Shown: piece after piece, positions 8,625 to 24,195 of the stretch
How the letters are laid out: every line of letters starts with the position of its first letter
How positions within the stretch are numbered: the first letter of the stretch is position 1
Assembly (NCBI GenBank): GCA_019745575.1
Contig: JAIETA010000278.1
Coordinates: 1-32,611, forward strand
From: Reyranella sp.
GTDB taxonomy: Bacteria > Pseudomonadota > Alphaproteobacteria > Reyranellales > Reyranellaceae
Direction of reading: 5' to 3'
Length of the DNA stretch: 32,611 nucleotides
Translations under genes and position numbers: made by a program
The notes under the pieces: generated by a model
Told to the model about the DNA's origin: nothing
The model's database searches: none
The model's input: only the letters and a program-made list of their open reading frames with translations

Positions 8625-9977
8625 ATGAAGCCCAAACGCCAACTCCGCCTCGGCGCCTTCATGCGCCCGGTCAGCATCCACACCGCCGCCTGGCGCTATC
8701 CCGGCGGCACGCCGGATGCCAACTTCAATCTCAAGGCGCTGGTGCAGTACGCCCAGACGCTGGAGCGCGGCAAGTTCGACGCCTTCTTCATGGCCGACCA
8801 CTTGGCGGTGCTGAACATGCCGATGGCGGCGCTGAAGCGCAGCGCCACGGTGACGTCGTTCGATCCGCTGACGCTTCTGCCGGCGCTGGCGATGGTGACC
8901 AGGCATCTCGGCCTGATCGCGACCGCCTCGACCACTTTCGAGCCGGCCTACACGATTGCCCGGCGCTTCGCCTCGCTCGACCACATCAGCGACGGCCGCG
9001 CCGGCTGGAACCTGGTGACGACGTCCAACCCTGATGCCGCGCTCAATTTCGGCATGGACGACCAGATGCCGCATGCCGAGCGCTATGCGCGGGCGCGTGA
9101 GTTCTTCGATGTCGTGACCGGCTTGTGGGATTCCTGGGCCGACGACGCCTTCGTCCGTGACGTCGAGAGCGGTCTCTACTTCGATCCCGACAAACTCCAC
9201 GTGCTGGATCACAAGGGCAAGTACCTGAAGGTTCGCGGGCCGTTGAACATCGCGCGGCCGATCCAGGGCTGGCCGGTTGTCGTCCAGGCCGGCGCCTCCG
9301 ATGCCGGCCGCCAGCTCGCCGCCGAGACCGCCGAGGTTGTGTTCGCGGCCGGCGGTCCGATTGCCGCCGGGCGGGAATTCTATGCCGACGTCAAAGGCCG
9401 CGCCGCCCGGGCTGGCCGCAACCCCGATCACCTGAAGATTCTGCCGGGCGCCTTCACCATCGTGGGCGAGTCGCTGGGCGAGGCGCAGGAGAAGAGGGCG
9501 CGGCTCGACAGTCTGGTCAACTACGACAGCGGCATCGCCGCGGTGTCGATCGCGCTCGGCACCGATGCACGCGCCTTCGATCCGGACGGGCCGTTGCCTG
9601 CCGACATCCCAGAAACCGACGCGAGCAAGAGCGGTCGCGAGCGTGTCATCGCGCTCGCCCGGCGCGAGGGGCTGACGGTGCGTCAGCTCGCCGGACGTCT
9701 CGGCGGCTACGGTGGCCTCGCCATGATGGGCACGCCCAGGATGATCGCCGACCAGATGGAGGAGTGGCTGGTGACGGAAGCCAGCGACGGCTTCAACGTC
9801 ATGTTCCCCTATCTGCCGGGCGGCCTGGATGATTTCGTCAACAAGGTCGTGCCCGAACTGCAGCGCCGCGGTCTGTTCCGGACCGAGTACGAAGGCGCGA
9901 CCCTGCGCGAGAACCTCGGCCTGCCGCGGCCGGACAACCGGTTCTTCCCGGTCGCCGGCCGCAAGGCCGCCGAGTAG
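8625..9977 (+). CDS. FMN-dependent LLM-class monooxygenase (NtaA/SnaA/DszA family)
   Basis: The protein has 450 residues and is a flavin-dependent luciferase-like TIM barrel. Family marks are the N-terminal LGAFMRPVSIHTAAWRYPG, KFDAFFMADH, FDPLTLLPALAM, the ASTTFEPAYTIARRFASLDHIS block with DGRAGWNLVTT, and PVVVQAGASDAGRQLAAE. Relatives are the oxygenase components of two-part systems that oxidise nitrilotriacetate, EDTA or organosulfur compounds and need a separate flavin reductase. No reductase gene is visible nearby. The substrate cannot be predicted. Its stop lies 6 bases from the stop of the convergent gene. Confidence 0.87.
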   Translation: MKPKRQLRLGAFMRPVSIHTAAWRYPGGTPDANFNLKALVQYAQTLERGKFDAFFMADHLAVLNMPMAALKRSATVTSFDPLTLLPALAMVTRHLGLIATASTTFEPAYTIARRFASLDHISDGRAGWNLVTTSNPDAALNFGMDDQMPHAERYARAREFFDVVTGLWDSWADDAFVRDVESGLYFDPDKLHVLDHKGKYLKVRGPLNIARPIQGWPVVVQAGASDAGRQLAAETAEVVFAAGGPIAAGREFYADVKGRAARAGRNPDHLKILPGAFTIVGESLGEAQEKRARLDSLVNYDSGIAAVSIALGTDARAFDPDGPLPADIPETDASKSGRERVIALARREGLTVRQLAGRLGGYGGLAMMGTPRMIADQMEEWLVTEASDGFNVMFPYLPGGLDDFVNKVVPELQRRGLFRTEYEGATLRENLGLPRPDNRFFPVAGRKAAE

Positions 9978-9983
9978 CCTGCG

Positions 9984-10358
9984 CTATTGCAGCGTGATGA
10001 CCGGCGTCTGGCCGCCGTTGCAGGTGTAGCAACATTTCTCGCAGCGCTGGTTGTTCTTGCCGATCCCCCAGTAGCGGTTCTGGTTGCCGGAAACCCAGGC
10101 GCCATAACAGATCTTCTCGCCGCCCAGGCAGCCGATCTTGAAGTTGCGAACGTTTGAATCATCGAGCATGTAGACCTTGCCCGGCGCCGGCCACTGATGG
10201 CCCTTGCGATCGGACGAGTACATGACGAACTCGACTTTGTATTGATATTCCGATTTGACCTGGAAGGTCATTTCACTCTGCGCCTCGGCCGACGCCGGAA
10301 CGAATGCGAGCGCCATCGCGGCAAACACGGCTGCCAGCACAATCCTTATCTTTTCCAT
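9984..10358 (-). CDS. Small Cys-rich exported protein of unknown function
   Basis: The protein has 124 residues. Residues 1-27 form a signal peptide (KIRIVLAAVFAAMALAFVPASAEAQ). The mature part of about 97 residues is rich in Tyr and Trp and has six cysteines, two in IGCLGGEKICYGAW and four in the C-terminal CEKCCYTC. Disulfides or metal binding in the periplasm are plausible. I recognise no named domain. The gene is alone on its strand, and its start faces a GNAT gene across a 122-base divergent promoter region, so it has its own promoter. The even number of cysteines and the secretion signal argue that it is a real gene. Confidence 0.75.
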   Translation of the reverse strand: MEKIRIVLAAVFAAMALAFVPASAEAQSEMTFQVKSEYQYKVEFVMYSSDRKGHQWPAPGKVYMLDDSNVRNFKIGCLGGEKICYGAWVSGNQNRYWGIGKNNQRCEKCCYTCNGGQTPVITLQ

Positions 10359-14505: not shown

Positions 14506-15378
14506 TCAAACCGCGCCGACGTCCTCGAGGGAGCGCACGATGTGTTCGTGCAGGCGCCGGGCCGGCGCTGACAGCTTGCGCGCCGGCAGCAGGGCGATCT
14601 CGGTGTCGTGCAGGTCGGGCAGATCCTCGCGGTGCTCGATGGCGGCCAGTCCAGCAGGCACCATGTCCTTCGGCAGGACCGTGACGCCCAGCCCGGCCTT
14701 GACCGCGGCATGCTGGCCGGCCAGCGAGGCGCAGCTGTAGGCGATGCGCCAGGGCCGCCGCACGGTGTTGAGCGAATCGGTCGCCCGCTTGCGGTAGACG
14801 CAAGGCGGCGGCGACAACACCAGCGGCAGCGGCCCTTCCCCGGGCACCGCCAGGCGCTCGGCGGCCACCCAGACCAATGGCTCGCGCCACACGCGGATGC
14901 CGCGATCCGACCGCTCGGGTTCGCGCTTGACCAGGACGAGATCGAAGTCGCCGTGGCGGAAGCGTGCCGCCAGATTGAGCGTGAGGTCGCAGGTCACTTC
15001 GAGTTGCACCGCCGGATAGGCCTGGGCGAACCGCGCCAGAACCTGCGGCAGATGGGTGGTGGCGAAATCCTCCGGTGTTCCCAGCCGCACCGTGCCGGCC
15101 AGCGCCGGTCCGCTGAGCCGGGCGACCAGTCGATCGTTCAGTTCCAGCATGTGGCGGGCATCGGCCAGCAGCGACTCGCCCTCGGCGGTCAGCCGCACGC
15201 GGCGCGACGTGCGGTCGAGCAGGCGCCGGCCCAGCGCCTCCTCGAGGCGCTTGATCTGCAGACTGAGCGTCGACTGGCGGCGCAGCAGCATGTCGGCGGC
15301 GCGGGTGAAGCCGCCGAGCTCGGCCACCGTCACGAAGGCGCGCAGCAGGTCGATGTCGAGGTTTTGCAGGCGGGCCAT
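14506..15378 (-). CDS. LysR family transcriptional regulator
   Basis: The protein has 290 residues. Residues 5-65 form the winged helix-turn-helix (LDIDLLRAFVTVAELGGFTRAADMLLRRQSTLSLQIKRLE, split over the canonical helices), followed by the linker helix and a substrate-binding domain beginning GTVRLGTPEDFATTHLPQVL. The ligand is unknown. It is divergent from the isocitrate dehydrogenase gene with 113 bases between start codons, the classic arrangement for LysR autoregulation plus control of the neighbour. The start has GGAAAG just upstream on the minus strand (15383-15388). Confidence 0.9.
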   Translation of the reverse strand: MARLQNLDIDLLRAFVTVAELGGFTRAADMLLRRQSTLSLQIKRLEEALGRRLLDRTSRRVRLTAEGESLLADARHMLELNDRLVARLSGPALAGTVRLGTPEDFATTHLPQVLARFAQAYPAVQLEVTCDLTLNLAARFRHGDFDLVLVKREPERSDRGIRVWREPLVWVAAERLAVPGEGPLPLVLSPPPCVYRKRATDSLNTVRRPWRIAYSCASLAGQHAAVKAGLGVTVLPKDMVPAGLAAIEHREDLPDLHDTEIALLPARKLSAPARRLHEHIVRSLEDVGAV

Positions 15379-20133: not shown

Positions 20134-20552
20134 GGCCTGCCCCGCCGGGTGGTGGTCTTGCTCAGGCTGATCACAAGGCAGCCGTTGACGGCGCTTCGCC
20201 GCACCGAGTCGTAGCGCCCGGCGGGCAGCGCGATCCGCCGCTCGAACCGGCCCTGCGGCAGCTCCAGGCGATGGATGGTGGCGGTACGCCATTCGTCCGG
20301 CACCACACGCATGCCCGAGATGACCAGCACGCCGTCCTCGATCGCGGCCTGCACCTGCTGCGGGTCGACGCCGGGCAGGGCGGCCAGGATCAGCACCTCG
20401 CCGTCGGTTTCCAGCATGTCGACCGGCGGCTCCCAGGTCACGCCCTGCGTGGAAGCCTGCGGCCGGAACATCTGGCGGTGGAGCCGGTCGGCCTGCGCCA
20501 GCATGTGCAGCGCCTCCGACCACATCCAATCGCGGGGACCGCTTCCGGTCAT
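20130..20552 (-). CDS. Small heat-shock protein, Hsp20/alpha-crystallin family
   Basis: The protein has 140 residues. A short N-terminal arm (MWSEALHMLAQADRLHRQMFRP) precedes the alpha-crystallin domain: PPVDMLETDGEVLILAALPGV, the VLVISG strand, and the family-typical FERRIALPAGRYDSVRRSAVNGCLVI block near the C-terminus. Such proteins hold unfolded proteins until refolded or degraded. It comes directly before lon with a 4-base overlap and has a sigma-32-like element upstream, so the pair is probably a heat-shock operon. The start has GGGAGA at 20561-20566 on the minus strand. Confidence 0.92.
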
Positions 20553-20608: not shown

Positions 20609-20627
20609 GGGTGGGGGGTGATTTCGT

Positions 20628-20754
20628 GGCCGAGCGTAGCTCGGCCCATGAGCGGCAGGACATTGCGTGGCAATGTCCGGGAGCGTCGAAGGCTCTTCCA
20701 AGCTGCCGCGAACATCAAACCGGCCGGACCAGCGCGACGCGTCCGCGCTGGTCC
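20628..20754. repeat. Cluster of three strong hairpins between ATPase and hsp20 genes
   Basis: The 249-base gap holds three perfect stems: GGCCGAGC/GCTCGGCC with loop GTA (20628-20646), GGACATTGC/GCAATGTCC with loop GTG (20658-20678) and an 11-pair stem GGACCAGCGCG/CGCGCTGGTCC (20726-20754). The tight GTA and GTG loops resemble the first stem of the repeat at 17592. No T-run follows on the minus strand, so this is not a standard terminator for the ATPase gene. No gene is credible in the gap. Confidence 0.65.
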
Positions 20755-20801
20755 CGAGGTCGTACGACACCTGCATCAGCATATGCTACGGTTGTAGGCG
20801 G

Positions 20802-23285
20802 TTATTTTTGACTAGCATTGGAAGATGCAAATTCGAATGGCGCCTGACAGCTGTCATGTGCGCATAGCGGGCGCCTCAAGGTGACCGGCCGCATAAAGCG
20901 TACCCGGCCGCACTTCGTGCACTTGAACTGATCGCGAAAGGCTTTGAACTCCGTCCATCGCGTTTTCTCATCGCCAATTGACCCCGCGCCGTACATCGCA
21001 TCTTGGAAGTGGCTACCGAAGTTCTCGACTTCACCCTTTTGCAGCGTATCGAGAAAACGATTCTGCATACCCGCAACGGGCTGTGGCGTGAGGTTTGCCT
21101 TGCCAAGGAAACTTGCCAACGCCGAAGCCAACTCGGCTCGTTCATACGAGTATGCTCGCTCAAGCGGTCGGATACGGATATCGACGCCGAATTCTCGGCA
21201 ACGCGCCAATAGCCACTCTTCTTCGGCTTGACGCATCTCGTTGGCTGCCGATTGGCCTTCGCTCCAACGGCTCTCGATCATCTCGTCACTCACCATGTCA
21301 TTCCCAAGTCGTGGGCCGAATCCGGGGGCGAGTCCGATAATGCGGTTGAAATTCCAATTTGCGGGTGAGAGTAGGTCCTTCAGATACAGGAAGAGCCGCT
21401 CATCGTGGGTAACAATGATCGTCTGGCAGTCGGCAAATTTTGCGGCAAGCATCTGCGCAAATGTGCGCCGATGATCGGCGTCGTACGATGTTACGATGTC
21501 GTCGAGTACCACGAGCGGCGCGCCCTTGTTGAATTCGAGAATCGCCGCCAATCGCAACGCCAGCGCAAGTGAGTGGATCTGTGAGTCGCTGAGATAGCCG
21601 GAAGGCTGAACCCCTTCGCGGTTGGCGGCGAAATCGACCAATAGAAGAAGCCTCTGCTGATTCGAGTCTTCCTCGGCCGGAAGTTCCAAGCGTACCTTCG
21701 CAGCACCCTGCCCTTGGACTAGCGCATAAATCTCGTTCGTAGGCTCGCGAAGCCGATCCAGCAGAAATTGCACCTTTGCCCTGATTGCACCCGAAATGAC
21801 GGTAGCCTGCTGAGCGAGTCCCATCGACAATTTGCCGAGTTCGTCGAGTGTGCGCTGTGCTGTGGCGTGTTCCACCTTGAGTTTGCGCAGTTCGTCGGTT
21901 TTAGCCTTTGCCTTGACGTAGGTGTGTTCACCTTGGCTCCTCTCAATGGCGTTAATCTTATCGTCAAGATCCTGGGTCAGGGTGGCAATTCCTGTCGTCG
22001 CCATTGTGGACTCTGGTGCCGCACCGTTACGCCAAGCATCGACGGCGGCCCGATAAGTTGCCACCGTCGCCTTAAAGGCCGCTTGGTCTTCTCGTAGTAA
22101 GGCCTGCAAACTGTCGATAGCGGTCAGTAGGCGCCGGCGGGCATCGGCGGCGGCCTTTCCGGCATCGCGTTGCAACTTGTTTGCGGCGGCATAGGCTGCA
22201 AGATCGGCAAGATGTTGACTAATATGCTTGTCAATCTCAGCTGCGCTGCCGGCTGAAGTCTTGTCTAGCGGGGTCGTACAGACCGGGCAGACCACCGGAA
22301 CTTCTGCGCCAGATTGGAAAAGTGGCGCGGCCGTACTCCATAGCTTCTCAAAAGCGGCGTCCTTTGCTTTCGCTCGCTCGGTTGCCTCGAACTCTACGGC
22401 GACAGCAAGTGCCGTCGCCGCCGCCTCGAAGGTTGGCAGTGCACCAGTTAAATGCTCGTCAGCTTCGTCTTTAGTCTCGCCCCAGATCGCGGCAGCAGTT
22501 CTCCGCAGCAGGCGCAGCCCATCCAAACCGAGCTTACCTTCTTCGTCCTTCGCTCGCTGAATCAGCTCAAGGTAGCCAGTGTCGTTGTCGTTCAGCGAAC
22601 TCAGCTTTAGCGCTGCGTCGAGCGGTGCGATGGCAGTGTCGTTTACATGGGCAACGCAGGCCGCTTCATCCCACGAAGTCACCTTTTGGCCAGTCAGTCG
22701 TGCAACCTGCAGATCGACCTGCCGAAGGTCGGACCCATCTTCCGACGCGATCTTCACCGCCGCTCGAATGGATCTCAGGTTCTTTTGAACTTCGACCAGC
22801 GGCCCAAGTTGCAGCCAGGTCGCGATGTCTGTGTAGCGTTGTTCGGCGGTCCGCGACTCGACAAATGCGCGCAGCGAGTAGCCTCGAATGATCGGGTCCA
22901 CGACGAAACAGTCGCGCACACTCTTCGCGATGGCGGGAATAGGGCGCTTAGAGGTCGCAGCTTGCCGCGTACCTTCTTTGGCCGCCGCCTTGCCCTGAGC
23001 AAAAGCGATGGTGACGCTCGGCTTTAGGCCGGCTGCTTCCGCCGCATTGTGCGCAAGAGCGACCGGGCCGGCCTGATTGTTGATCGCCCTCTGACCCAGG
23101 CGCTCGAGCGTGCCGTCGGCGGAGAAGACGAATTCCAGGGCGTCCACGATGCTCGACTTACCAGAACCGTTGGGACCGAAGACGGCGAGGCATCGCTTGG
23201 CCACGAAGTCGAATTCCTTCGTAAGCAAATAGGCACGAAACCCCGTCAGAACGAGGCGACGAAGGAGGTAGGGTGCATCAGGCAT
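20802..23285 (-). CDS. Rad50/SMC-like AAA ATPase with zinc hook and C-terminal zinc ribbon
   Basis: The protein has 827 residues. The N-terminal half-ATPase has Walker A G37-PNGSGKSS (Lys43). A block with IIRGYSLRAFVESRTAEQRY follows. A long coiled-coil region is broken by Cys333-Pro-Val-Cys336, a Rad50-type zinc hook. The C-terminal half-ATPase has the signature L565-SDSQ, Walker B LVVLDD (Asp595-Asp596) and the switch His627 in VTHDE. After it comes an extra domain of about 190 residues with GSHFQDAMYGAGSIGDEKTRW and a four-Cys ribbon (C789-x2-C792, C808-x4-C813). It should form DNA-clamping dimers. No nuclease motif is seen. ATG at 23285 overlaps the small upstream gene by 8 bases; an in-frame start at 23330 is less likely. 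Base use is less GC-rich than the flanks, suggesting transfer. Confidence 0.85.
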   Translation of the reverse strand: MPDAPYLLRRLVLTGFRAYLLTKEFDFVAKRCLAVFGPNGSGKSSIVDALEFVFSADGTLERLGQRAINNQAGPVALAHNAAEAAGLKPSVTIAFAQGKAAAKEGTRQAATSKRPIPAIAKSVRDCFVVDPIIRGYSLRAFVESRTAEQRYTDIATWLQLGPLVEVQKNLRSIRAAVKIASEDGSDLRQVDLQVARLTGQKVTSWDEAACVAHVNDTAIAPLDAALKLSSLNDNDTGYLELIQRAKDEEGKLGLDGLRLLRRTAAAIWGETKDEADEHLTGALPTFEAAATALAVAVEFEATERAKAKDAAFEKLWSTAAPLFQSGAEVPVVCPVCTTPLDKTSAGSAAEIDKHISQHLADLAAYAAANKLQRDAGKAAADARRRLLTAIDSLQALLREDQAAFKATVATYRAAVDAWRNGAAPESTMATTGIATLTQDLDDKINAIERSQGEHTYVKAKAKTDELRKLKVEHATAQRTLDELGKLSMGLAQQATVISGAIRAKVQFLLDRLREPTNEIYALVQGQGAAKVRLELPAEEDSNQQRLLLLVDFAANREGVQPSGYLSDSQIHSLALALRLAAILEFNKGAPLVVLDDIVTSYDADHRRTFAQMLAAKFADCQTIIVTHDERLFLYLKDLLSPANWNFNRIIGLAPGFGPRLGNDMVSDEMIESRWSEGQSAANEMRQAEEEWLLARCREFGVDIRIRPLERAYSYERAELASALASFLGKANLTPQPVAGMQNRFLDTLQKGEVENFGSHFQDAMYGAGSIGDEKTRWTEFKAFRDQFKCTKCGRVRFMRPVTLRRPLCAHDSCQAPFEFASSNASQK

Positions 23286-23532
23286 CGGCCGTCTCGCCGT
23301 CTTTGCCTGGCGCGGCGCGGTCCTTCGCAAGCTTTACGATCGACGAGACAGCCCGAGCGCTTGCGTCCTTCGCAGGGTTTTCGATCAAGAGTTCGGTGGC
23401 AAGGATCTTAGCGAGCTCCTTGTCGATGCCATCGCTGCTTTGCAGCGTGTTCGCGAGAGCCGCTAGAAAGTCCGCCGGGGTTTCGGCGGCGCCCGGGGCA
23501 GCAGATGCCGGTGCTTGGTCGTGATCAACCAT
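23278..23532 (-). CDS. 84-residue protein in operon with the Rad50-like ATPase
   Basis: The protein is acidic to neutral, with a disordered Ala/Pro-rich front (residues 1-20) and a helical core (FLAALANTLQSSDGIDKELAKILATELL and ARAVSSIVKLAKDRAA). I recognise no family. It is probably real: its stop overlaps the ATPase start by 8 bases on the same strand, which is a common sign of a paired function, and its helices could bind the ATPase. The ribosome-binding site is weak (GAAAG about 6-10 bases upstream of ATG 23532). It would be the first gene of the two-gene unit. Confidence 0.6.
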   Translation of the reverse strand: MVDHDQAPASAAPGAAETPADFLAALANTLQSSDGIDKELAKILATELLIENPAKDASARAVSSIVKLAKDRAAPGKDGETADA

Positions 23533-23790
23533 GATCTTGCTTTCAGTGGGATGCGCTATCGGCGGGCCCCGAACCTAACGACGGTCGGCCCATAGGAAAG
23601 GCTTTCTCGCGCGGCCTCGATATGACATTTACCACGGCCCCCCGACTATGAAAGGGCCGAAAAGCCCCCGGTATTTCAGAGGCCCGGAGCTGCTTACGTT
23701 CCCTCCCGGCGTCCGGCTGGGAGTATCGTCACAACGGCACTATGCTGCCCCGATCCGGGCGATCTGCTATTCTGGCGGAGACCAGAAGGG
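23533..23790. other. Divergent intergenic region between the ATPase operon and DUF433 gene
   Basis: These 258 bases separate two divergent units and must hold both promoters. I see no clear -35/-10 pair on either strand; TATTCT at 23768-23773 is a weak candidate -10 for the DUF433 gene. A run with GGGCCGAAAAGCCCCC near 23656 could form a short hairpin. No gene is credible here. Confidence 0.4.
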
Positions 23791-24027
23791 ATGAATGCCG
23801 TGAACCACGACCGCATCGTTCTCGGTCCTGCGATCCTCGCCGGCAAGCCGGTGATCCGGGGCACCCGTCTGTCGGTCGAGTTCATCATCGGCCTGCTCGC
23901 CGATGGCTGGAGCGAAGCCGCGATCGTCGAGAACTACCCCGGCATGGCACATGATGACGTACTGGCGTGCCTGGCCTACGCGCGCGACAGACTGCGGGAC
24001 GAACGCATCTATCCCAGCGCCGCGTGA
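23791..24027 (+). CDS. DUF433 family antitoxin-like protein
   Basis: The protein has 78 residues and matches DUF433 along its length: DRIVLGPAILAGKPVIRGTRLSVEFIIGLLADGW, then SEAAIVENYPGMAHDDVLACLAYARDRL. DUF433 proteins have a helix-turn-helix-like fold and are often the antitoxin next to a PIN-like DUF5615 toxin. ATG at 23791 abuts AAGGG, so GGAG at 23777-23780, 10 bases upstream, or the GTG start at 23800 may be used. The next reading frame opens 2 bases after the stop and begins like DUF5615 but is broken, so this antitoxin appears to be orphaned. Confidence 0.85.
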   Translation: MNAVNHDRIVLGPAILAGKPVIRGTRLSVEFIIGLLADGWSEAAIVENYPGMAHDDVLACLAYARDRLRDERIYPSAA

Positions 24028-24029
24028 CG

Positions 24030-24195
24030 ATGCGCTGGCTGTGCAACGAGAATATCCCGCGCCATCTCGTCGAGGAGCTTCGCAGGCGCGCTGCCACCCG
24101 CAAGGGATAGGCGTCTGGGCCGGCATCTGCTGGCAAAATGCCAGCAGCCCTGCGAAATCCTCGATGCTGACTTGCAAAATGAGATTCACAGGTTC
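24030..24195 (+). pseudogene. Degraded DUF5615-type PIN-like toxin gene
   Basis: The open frame at 24030-24110 gives 26 residues, MRWLCNENIPRHLVEELRRR and a short tail, then TAG. The front matches the start of DUF5615 proteins (M-R-x-L-x-N/D-E-N-x-P-x-x-V/L-x-x-L), which are normally about 110-120 residues. Family-like pieces continue in other frames: GIGVWAGICWQNASSP (from 24104) and EILDADLQNE (from 24154), comparable to the VVW-x-n-A-x-D-x-E-I-L region. At least two frameshifts are implied and the C-terminal half with its acidic residues is gone. The N-terminal match is good; the later pieces are less certain. Confidence 0.55.

Follow-up and report, generated by a model that had tools for sequence, protein, structure and literature searches.

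A conserved and mobile gene pair encoding a small protein and a zinc-hook Rad50/SMC-like ATPase with a predicted RNase-like C-terminal domain

In a 32,611-nucleotide stretch of DNA from Reyranella sp. (contig JAIETA010000278.1, hereafter the window), a small gene overlaps the start of a gene encoding a Rad50/SMC-like ATPase. By comparing this locus with others, which we refer to by our own locus (L) and genome (G) numbers, we found that the gene pair is the conserved unit, that both genes are under selective constraint, and that the two-gene unit is patchily distributed and mobile, with carriage on plasmids. A role of the pair in defence is likely, and RNase activity is predicted from sequence motifs for the C-terminal domain of the ATPase. 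We give slightly less than an even chance to the combined account, in which the unit likely acts against invaders and its ATPase is predicted first to restrain and then to free a C-terminal domain that likely cuts RNA.

The pair lies on the minus strand with the small gene first (23278-23532, 84 aa), followed by the ATPase gene (20802-23285), which encodes 827 aa from its ATG, or 842 aa when the frame is read from an alternative TTG start. The two genes share eight bases, ATGCCTGA (23278-23285, minus strand), which hold the ATPase start and the small-gene stop, just as a sequence-only reading of this DNA had described. Its estimate of base composition (around 53-65% GC against around 70% or more) is also near the measured values. 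In 1-kb windows, GC is 0.56-0.61 over the pair (20.5 to 23.5 kb), against 0.69-0.72 towards Lon (17.0 to 20.5 kb) and 0.65-0.69 on the opposite flank (24 to 26 kb). Of the flanking genes that could be named, HSP20 and Lon stand to one side of the pair and DUF433 and an EamA transporter to the other, in agreement with the earlier remark that no MRE11-, TOPRIM- or Cap4-type partner is present. No RNA structure was found upstream of the small gene (z 0.90). Its product is predicted from family alignments to contain three helices (residues 19-32, 38-49, and 57-73), with low confidence (model pLDDT 63); it has no PADLOC or Pfam match, and a fold search with this poor query model returned nothing at E 0.001.

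The ATPase consists of an ABC head, coiled coils with a CPVC hook, and a C-terminal domain. Its Walker A motif, GPNGSGKS, occupies residues 37-44 (23154-23177), the CPVC zinc hook residues 333-336 (22278-22289), the ABC signature LSDSQ residues 565-569 (21579-21593), and the Walker B/D-loop segment, LVVLDDIVTSYD, residues 591-602 (21480-21515), all on the minus strand, and THDER stands at residues 626-630. The two half-ATPase parts, the hook, and the catalytic motifs recognized by the sequence-only reading are therefore present, and they are mostly invariant in 50 aligned relatives; this is true of LSDSQ and of C333, P334, and C336 in the hook. In the same alignment, invariant columns make up 46% of the signature/Walker B segment, 30% of the N-terminal lobe, and 11-12% of the coiled coil. 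The head fold is closest to Rad50 and SMC heads in a fold search with the whole-protein model, and the ATPase matches SMC_N in Pfam at 1.1e-22, but the profile searches suggested earlier for both proteins returned no specific model for either in Pfam, PADLOC, NCBIfam, or PHROGs.

We compared the arrangement of the pair first across 11 close loci (the window, L048, L007-L011, L045, L047, L066, and L067; 51-92% identity), leaving out L068, where the ATPase is a remnant and the small gene is missing. The small gene, whose absence beside the ATPase would have spoken against the proposal of the sequence-only reading, adjoins it in all 11, and the octamer ATGNCTGA is found at the ATPase start in every one of them. 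In L009, a plasmid copy, the small gene is frameshifted near its end (9774-9993), and the ATPase frame stays open.

The distant set comprises 15 loci from Alphaproteobacteria, Bacteroidota, and haloarchaea (L046, L069, L084-L088, and L091-L098), namely 13 hand-picked plasmid records plus two genomes, several of which were recovered with distant members as queries. Within this hand-picked set, all 15 loci have an ORF of 53-81 aa that runs 4-26 nt past the ATPase start, a result that bears on the proposed check of whether the neighbours stay together in unrelated genomes and shows a similar arrangement beyond the close relatives; 12 of these ORFs are annotated, and three (L046, L069, and L095) come from an ORF scan. 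At random positions in 22 loci, an ORF of 50-100 aa overlapping by 1-30 nt was found in 392 of 6600 cases. The unannotated 81-aa ORF of the Hymenobacter plasmid L095 (3772-4017), which overlaps the ATPase start by 26 nt, sits where Fibrella L094 has its annotated small gene. Comparison of the window's small protein with the distant ones gave hhalign probabilities below 4%, values that do not establish homology. When the small proteins were compared with shuffled controls, the L087/L046/L069 group and all groups pooled scored above every one of 40 shuffles, while the other four groups did not. The source contigs apparently common to the ATPase and small-protein families number 13 against 0.27 expected, a count that we take as supporting only.

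Comparison with genome G406 bounds a GC-poor insert of around 3.1 kb that carries the pair (20627-23742): the G406 flanks align to window position 20626 and again from 23743, with around 690 bp in place of the 3.1 kb. Given that this slot in G406 (L050, 5750-6366) holds a Gp49 (DUF891)-HTH gene pair, the HSP20-DUF433 site takes up different small cassettes. Window positions 20531 and 24663 lie around 90 bp apart in G405 (L024), and G414 has the pair, 90.5% identical in its DNA and flanked as in the window. Relative to the G414 copy, the small gene has a dN/dS of 0.20 and the ATPase, over 762 codons, one of 0.13. Beside the insert, the DUF433 gene (23791-24027, plus strand) precedes a frame with only 26 codons before its stop (24030-24110), which looks like a shortened toxin-antitoxin partner; G406 shares the DUF433 part.

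ATPase relatives were found in three of 61 genomes of the genus (its own included) and, as lower bounds obtained by scoring the best two or three candidates per genome, in at least three of 385 genomes of the class (its own and one distant member included), at least two of 398 of the phylum (its own and one distant member), and at least three of 295 of another alphaproteobacterial family (one being a remnant). Full-length relatives occur in five of 72,556 plasmid records, and a protein database holds 497 small-protein relatives (E 0.01) and at least 403 ATPase relatives (E 1e-3). The pair is not part of a chromosomal family with fixed synteny, an outcome that the sequence-only reading had named as contrary to its proposal, as the insert is missing in close relatives and other copies are found on plasmids. 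We also considered and rejected the idea that the ATPase is a phage-borne gene: the window ATPase has no match in 50,697 phage records, and none of 23 viral-contig stretches matching two peptide patterns encodes a relative.

Several copies of the pair are located beside defence genes. Among the close loci, the following lie within around 10 kb: MmeI and AbiE in L007 (by annotation); Mrr-nSTAND3 and PDC-S73 in L045; HamC2, SIR2, HerA, and ArdC in L047; LmuA (1e-87), LmuB (1.4e-154), and AbiEii in L066, which also carries DUF3223; and PDC-M01A/PtuA and PDC-M01B (Septu-like), together with an integrase, in L067. Among the distant loci, the pair in Halorhabdus (L091) is found inside a BREX-5 operon in the order pglX, small gene, ATPase, pglZ, while AbiE and an abortive-infection gene are near L086, DarT near L088, and DUF262 and HipA near L097. 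The expectation of defence neighbours thus holds for these copies and not for others: the window copy has no defence gene among its named neighbours, L008-L010 and L011 have no clear one nearby (L011 has UvrD- and PD-(D/E)XK-type genes), and L085, L092, L096, and L098 have none by annotation. This survey describes the observed loci alone, without a random-gene control. Two further observations concern the order of genes. In L007, a plasmid of Bradyrhizobium sp. 195, SIR2 and HerA genes are reduced to their ends, which directly precede SbcD (14809-15143), as if an order like that of L047 (ATPase, DUF3223, SIR2, HerA, SbcD) had lost its middle. The 239-aa DUF3223/HamC2 proteins of L047 (8843-9562) and L007 (12475-13194) end in a C-x2-TG ... 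DH pattern that looks HNH-like by eye.

The C-terminal domain of the ATPase (residues 661-827; 20805-21305, minus strand) has no Pfam match and is predicted to be RNase-like. Residues 661-785 contain 47% invariant columns in the 50 relatives and are as conserved as the ATPase core. They include R685-x3-E689 (21219-21233), invariant in the relatives, and N755-F-G-S-H759 (21009-21023), in which N755 and H759 are invariant; a Cys4 ribbon follows (C789, C792, C808, and C813; 20847-20921) with a weak match to Zn_ribbon_8, below the cut-off. All these elements are on the minus strand, and the first two resemble the RloC motif Arg-X3-Glu-X36-52-His, in which Ser often precedes the His and in which an Ala change at the Arg, Glu, or His abolishes nuclease activity in vivo (PMC2610378). 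The window ATPase has the S758-H759 dipeptide after a spacer of 69 residues, outside the X36-52 range. At the distant loci, the Glu and the His are each present in 15 of 15, the Asn in 14, and the Arg in 13, and the residue before the His is Ser in three, Val in 10, and Ala in two. In column permutations of the ATPase family, R-x3-E...SH arose in 1.85% of shuffles and its combination with N-x2-SH in 0.03%, both being post hoc figures. The window domain aligns with two distant members at a probability of 93%.

The RNase domains of RloC and PrrC have been placed in the HEPN superfamily, for which the motif is Rx4-6H (PMC3710099). The window ATPase does not show this motif, as Glu754 stands at the position expected for the Arg. 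The Bacteroidota members L094 and L095, which are without the Arg of R-x3-E, show the classical HEPN Rx4-6H form as RNEVGAH, which looks as though the active-site Arg had shifted to its usual HEPN place. No Pfam HEPN family scored above the cut-off for the window C-terminus or for five distant ones, a PDB sequence search with the C-terminal profile gave three chance matches, and no HEPN or RNase fold was found among whole-protein fold matches, lists that were filled by the ATPase head and barely reached residues 664-827. The structure model falls below pLDDT 50 at residues 757-767 and so says nothing on active-site geometry. Against RloC, hhalign probabilities for the domain were 0.04-12.6%, overall not a significant match, and the best P-value (0.0012) was obtained only with the shared ATPase H-loop included; the best local pieces were the motif blocks. 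The local score exceeded those of all 120 column shuffles, whereas 52 of the 120 reached the global score. The RNase reading therefore draws on the motif and the architecture rather than on established homology. Because this region matches the ATPase core in conservation and has an RloC-type motif, an effector in the C-terminal region fits best among the options offered by the sequence-only reading, which had otherwise cast the ATPase as sensor or clamp and the small protein as adaptor, and whose interpretation is partly supported overall.

Taken together, the architecture, the motif, the neighbourhoods, the conservation of the pair, and its mobility are best explained by a likely anti-invader system whose ATPase has its own predicted C-terminal RNase. 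Under this explanation, the small protein would be made first, by translational coupling, and would bind the ATPase as a lock or an adaptor. Two ATPases could then join through the zinc hook and scan DNA until invader ends, hairpins, or forks are met, at which point ATP-driven head closure would free the C-terminal domain. The freed domain might cut RNA (in the manner of RloC, this would most likely be tRNA) and halt the infected cell. The DNA cue is assumed here by analogy with Lamassu (PMC10586767) and RloC (PMC2610378). The earlier suggestion of a defence module is supported in that the pair is conserved, patchy, mobile, and several times found beside defence genes. More tentatively, the pair may constitute an undescribed immune module of bacteria and haloarchaea, able to sit in BREX operons, in which a zinc-hook clamp would drive its own C-terminal HEPN-class RNase and the tiny, fast-diverging overlapping protein would act as lock and trigger. 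We found no description of the gene pair in the available text of open-licence PMC papers, and DUF3223, RloC, PrrC, zinc hook, and SbcC do not occur in a 2026 BREX survey (PMC12839542).

It is also conceivable, although we consider it doubtful, that the ATPase is a defence sensor without a nuclease of its own, which recognizes invader DNA while the small protein recruits a nuclease in trans (SbcD or DUF3223/HamC) and the C-terminal domain serves as a binding platform. DUF3223/HamC does lie directly after the ATPase in six close loci, intact in L007, L047, and L066 and truncated in L008, L009, and L010; SbcD adjoins in L007, L011, L047, and L066; and the best PADLOC matches of the ATPase, LmuB and mad3, are parts of separate-effector systems. 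However, DUF3223 is absent from the other five (the window, L048, L011, L045, and L067), no relative of it was found in the window's genome or in G414, with G408 and G897 as positive controls, and the C-terminal domain is conserved beyond the need of a platform. From the same counts, we rejected DUF3223/HamC as an obligate third subunit.

A role in DNA maintenance or plasmid stability, with a Rad50/SbcC-like repair or segregation ATPase and a small loader, is unlikely. The head fold closest to Rad50 and SMC, the carriage of the pair on large plasmids, and the SbcCD genes adjoining it in four close loci would suit such a role, but Rad50 proper is without such a C-terminal domain, as stated for Rad50, SbcC, and gp46 in PMC2610378, and the pair is co-located with varied defence genes. 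Furthermore, no relative was found in 58 of the 61 genus genomes, which indicates that the pair is dispensable. Least probable is a toxin-antitoxin addiction pair with the C-terminal RNase as toxin, the first-translated small protein as antitoxin, and anti-phage action as a secondary effect, for although the small gene comes first with an overlapping stop/start, plasmids carry the pair, and a Gp49 (DUF891)-HTH pair fills the G406 slot, the small gene of L009 is frameshifted while its ATPase frame has no stops, and a zinc-hook ATPase of 827 residues would make an unusual addiction toxin.

The window ATPase has counterparts, in part, in several known systems. The best single PADLOC match of the window ATPase is MADS mad3 (80.7 bits), but only pieces of that 374-position model are matched. 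Some relatives have in common with Hachiman type II a HamC2-like DUF3223 gene, which in these relatives comes directly after the ATPase; HamC, a DUF3223 gene, accompanies 379 Hachiman systems (PMC8565338). No HamA or HamB, however, is annotated in the opened loci or among the window's named neighbours. The head fold and the zinc hook are shared with SbcCD/Mre11-Rad50, from which the window ATPase differs by its extra C-terminal domain; no Mre11-type gene is among the named neighbours, an SbcD query found no SbcD in the window, and the SbcD next to the pair in L011, L047, and L066 comes with an SbcC-like gene of its own. Lamassu likewise has a Rad50-like hook ATPase as its presumed sensor, and the window ATPase scores 72.8 bits on the LmuB model PDLC03859; this score does not decide either way, as the model is unspecific, given that the LmuB of L066 scores 66.7 (514 on its own model) and an RloC-type fragment 57.2. 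The window ATPase is around 170 residues longer than LmuB, which has around 650 aa (PMC10586767), and has no LmuA beside it. Plain Lamassu was not adopted, there being no LmuA and, in L066, a separate LmuA-LmuB pair near the gene pair.

RloC and PrrC share with the window ATPase a Rad50-like ABC head, a coiled coil with a CXXC hook, a length of around 800 aa, and a C-terminal R-x3-E...SH. In 14 RloC-type proteins of PF13166, which score 362-611 and all have CXXC, R-x3-E followed by SH is found in 11 (L074 and L079 are without it, and L078 has only an implausible match), and the RloC-type L070 matches PADLOC PDC-S06. By contrast, the window ATPase scores 15.5 bits on PF13166 (cut-off 36) and 35 bits on PDC-S06, its spacer of 69 residues between Glu and His compares with 36-44 in the 11 RloC-type proteins counted identically, and it has a Cys4 ribbon after the motif as well as a small partner gene. 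RloC has been described as a zinc-hook Rad50-like ATPase whose hook mutants are more active, and its authors raised the possibility of a "cognate silencing partner" (PMC2610378), of which the small overlapping protein would be a concrete counterpart if our reading is true. The pair would then link Rad50/SMC-like DNA-sensing defence, as in Lamassu and Wadjet, with the ABC-RNase suicide enzymes RloC and PrrC, through a family that is found in two domains of life and that has so far had no specific model in the four profile collections named above.
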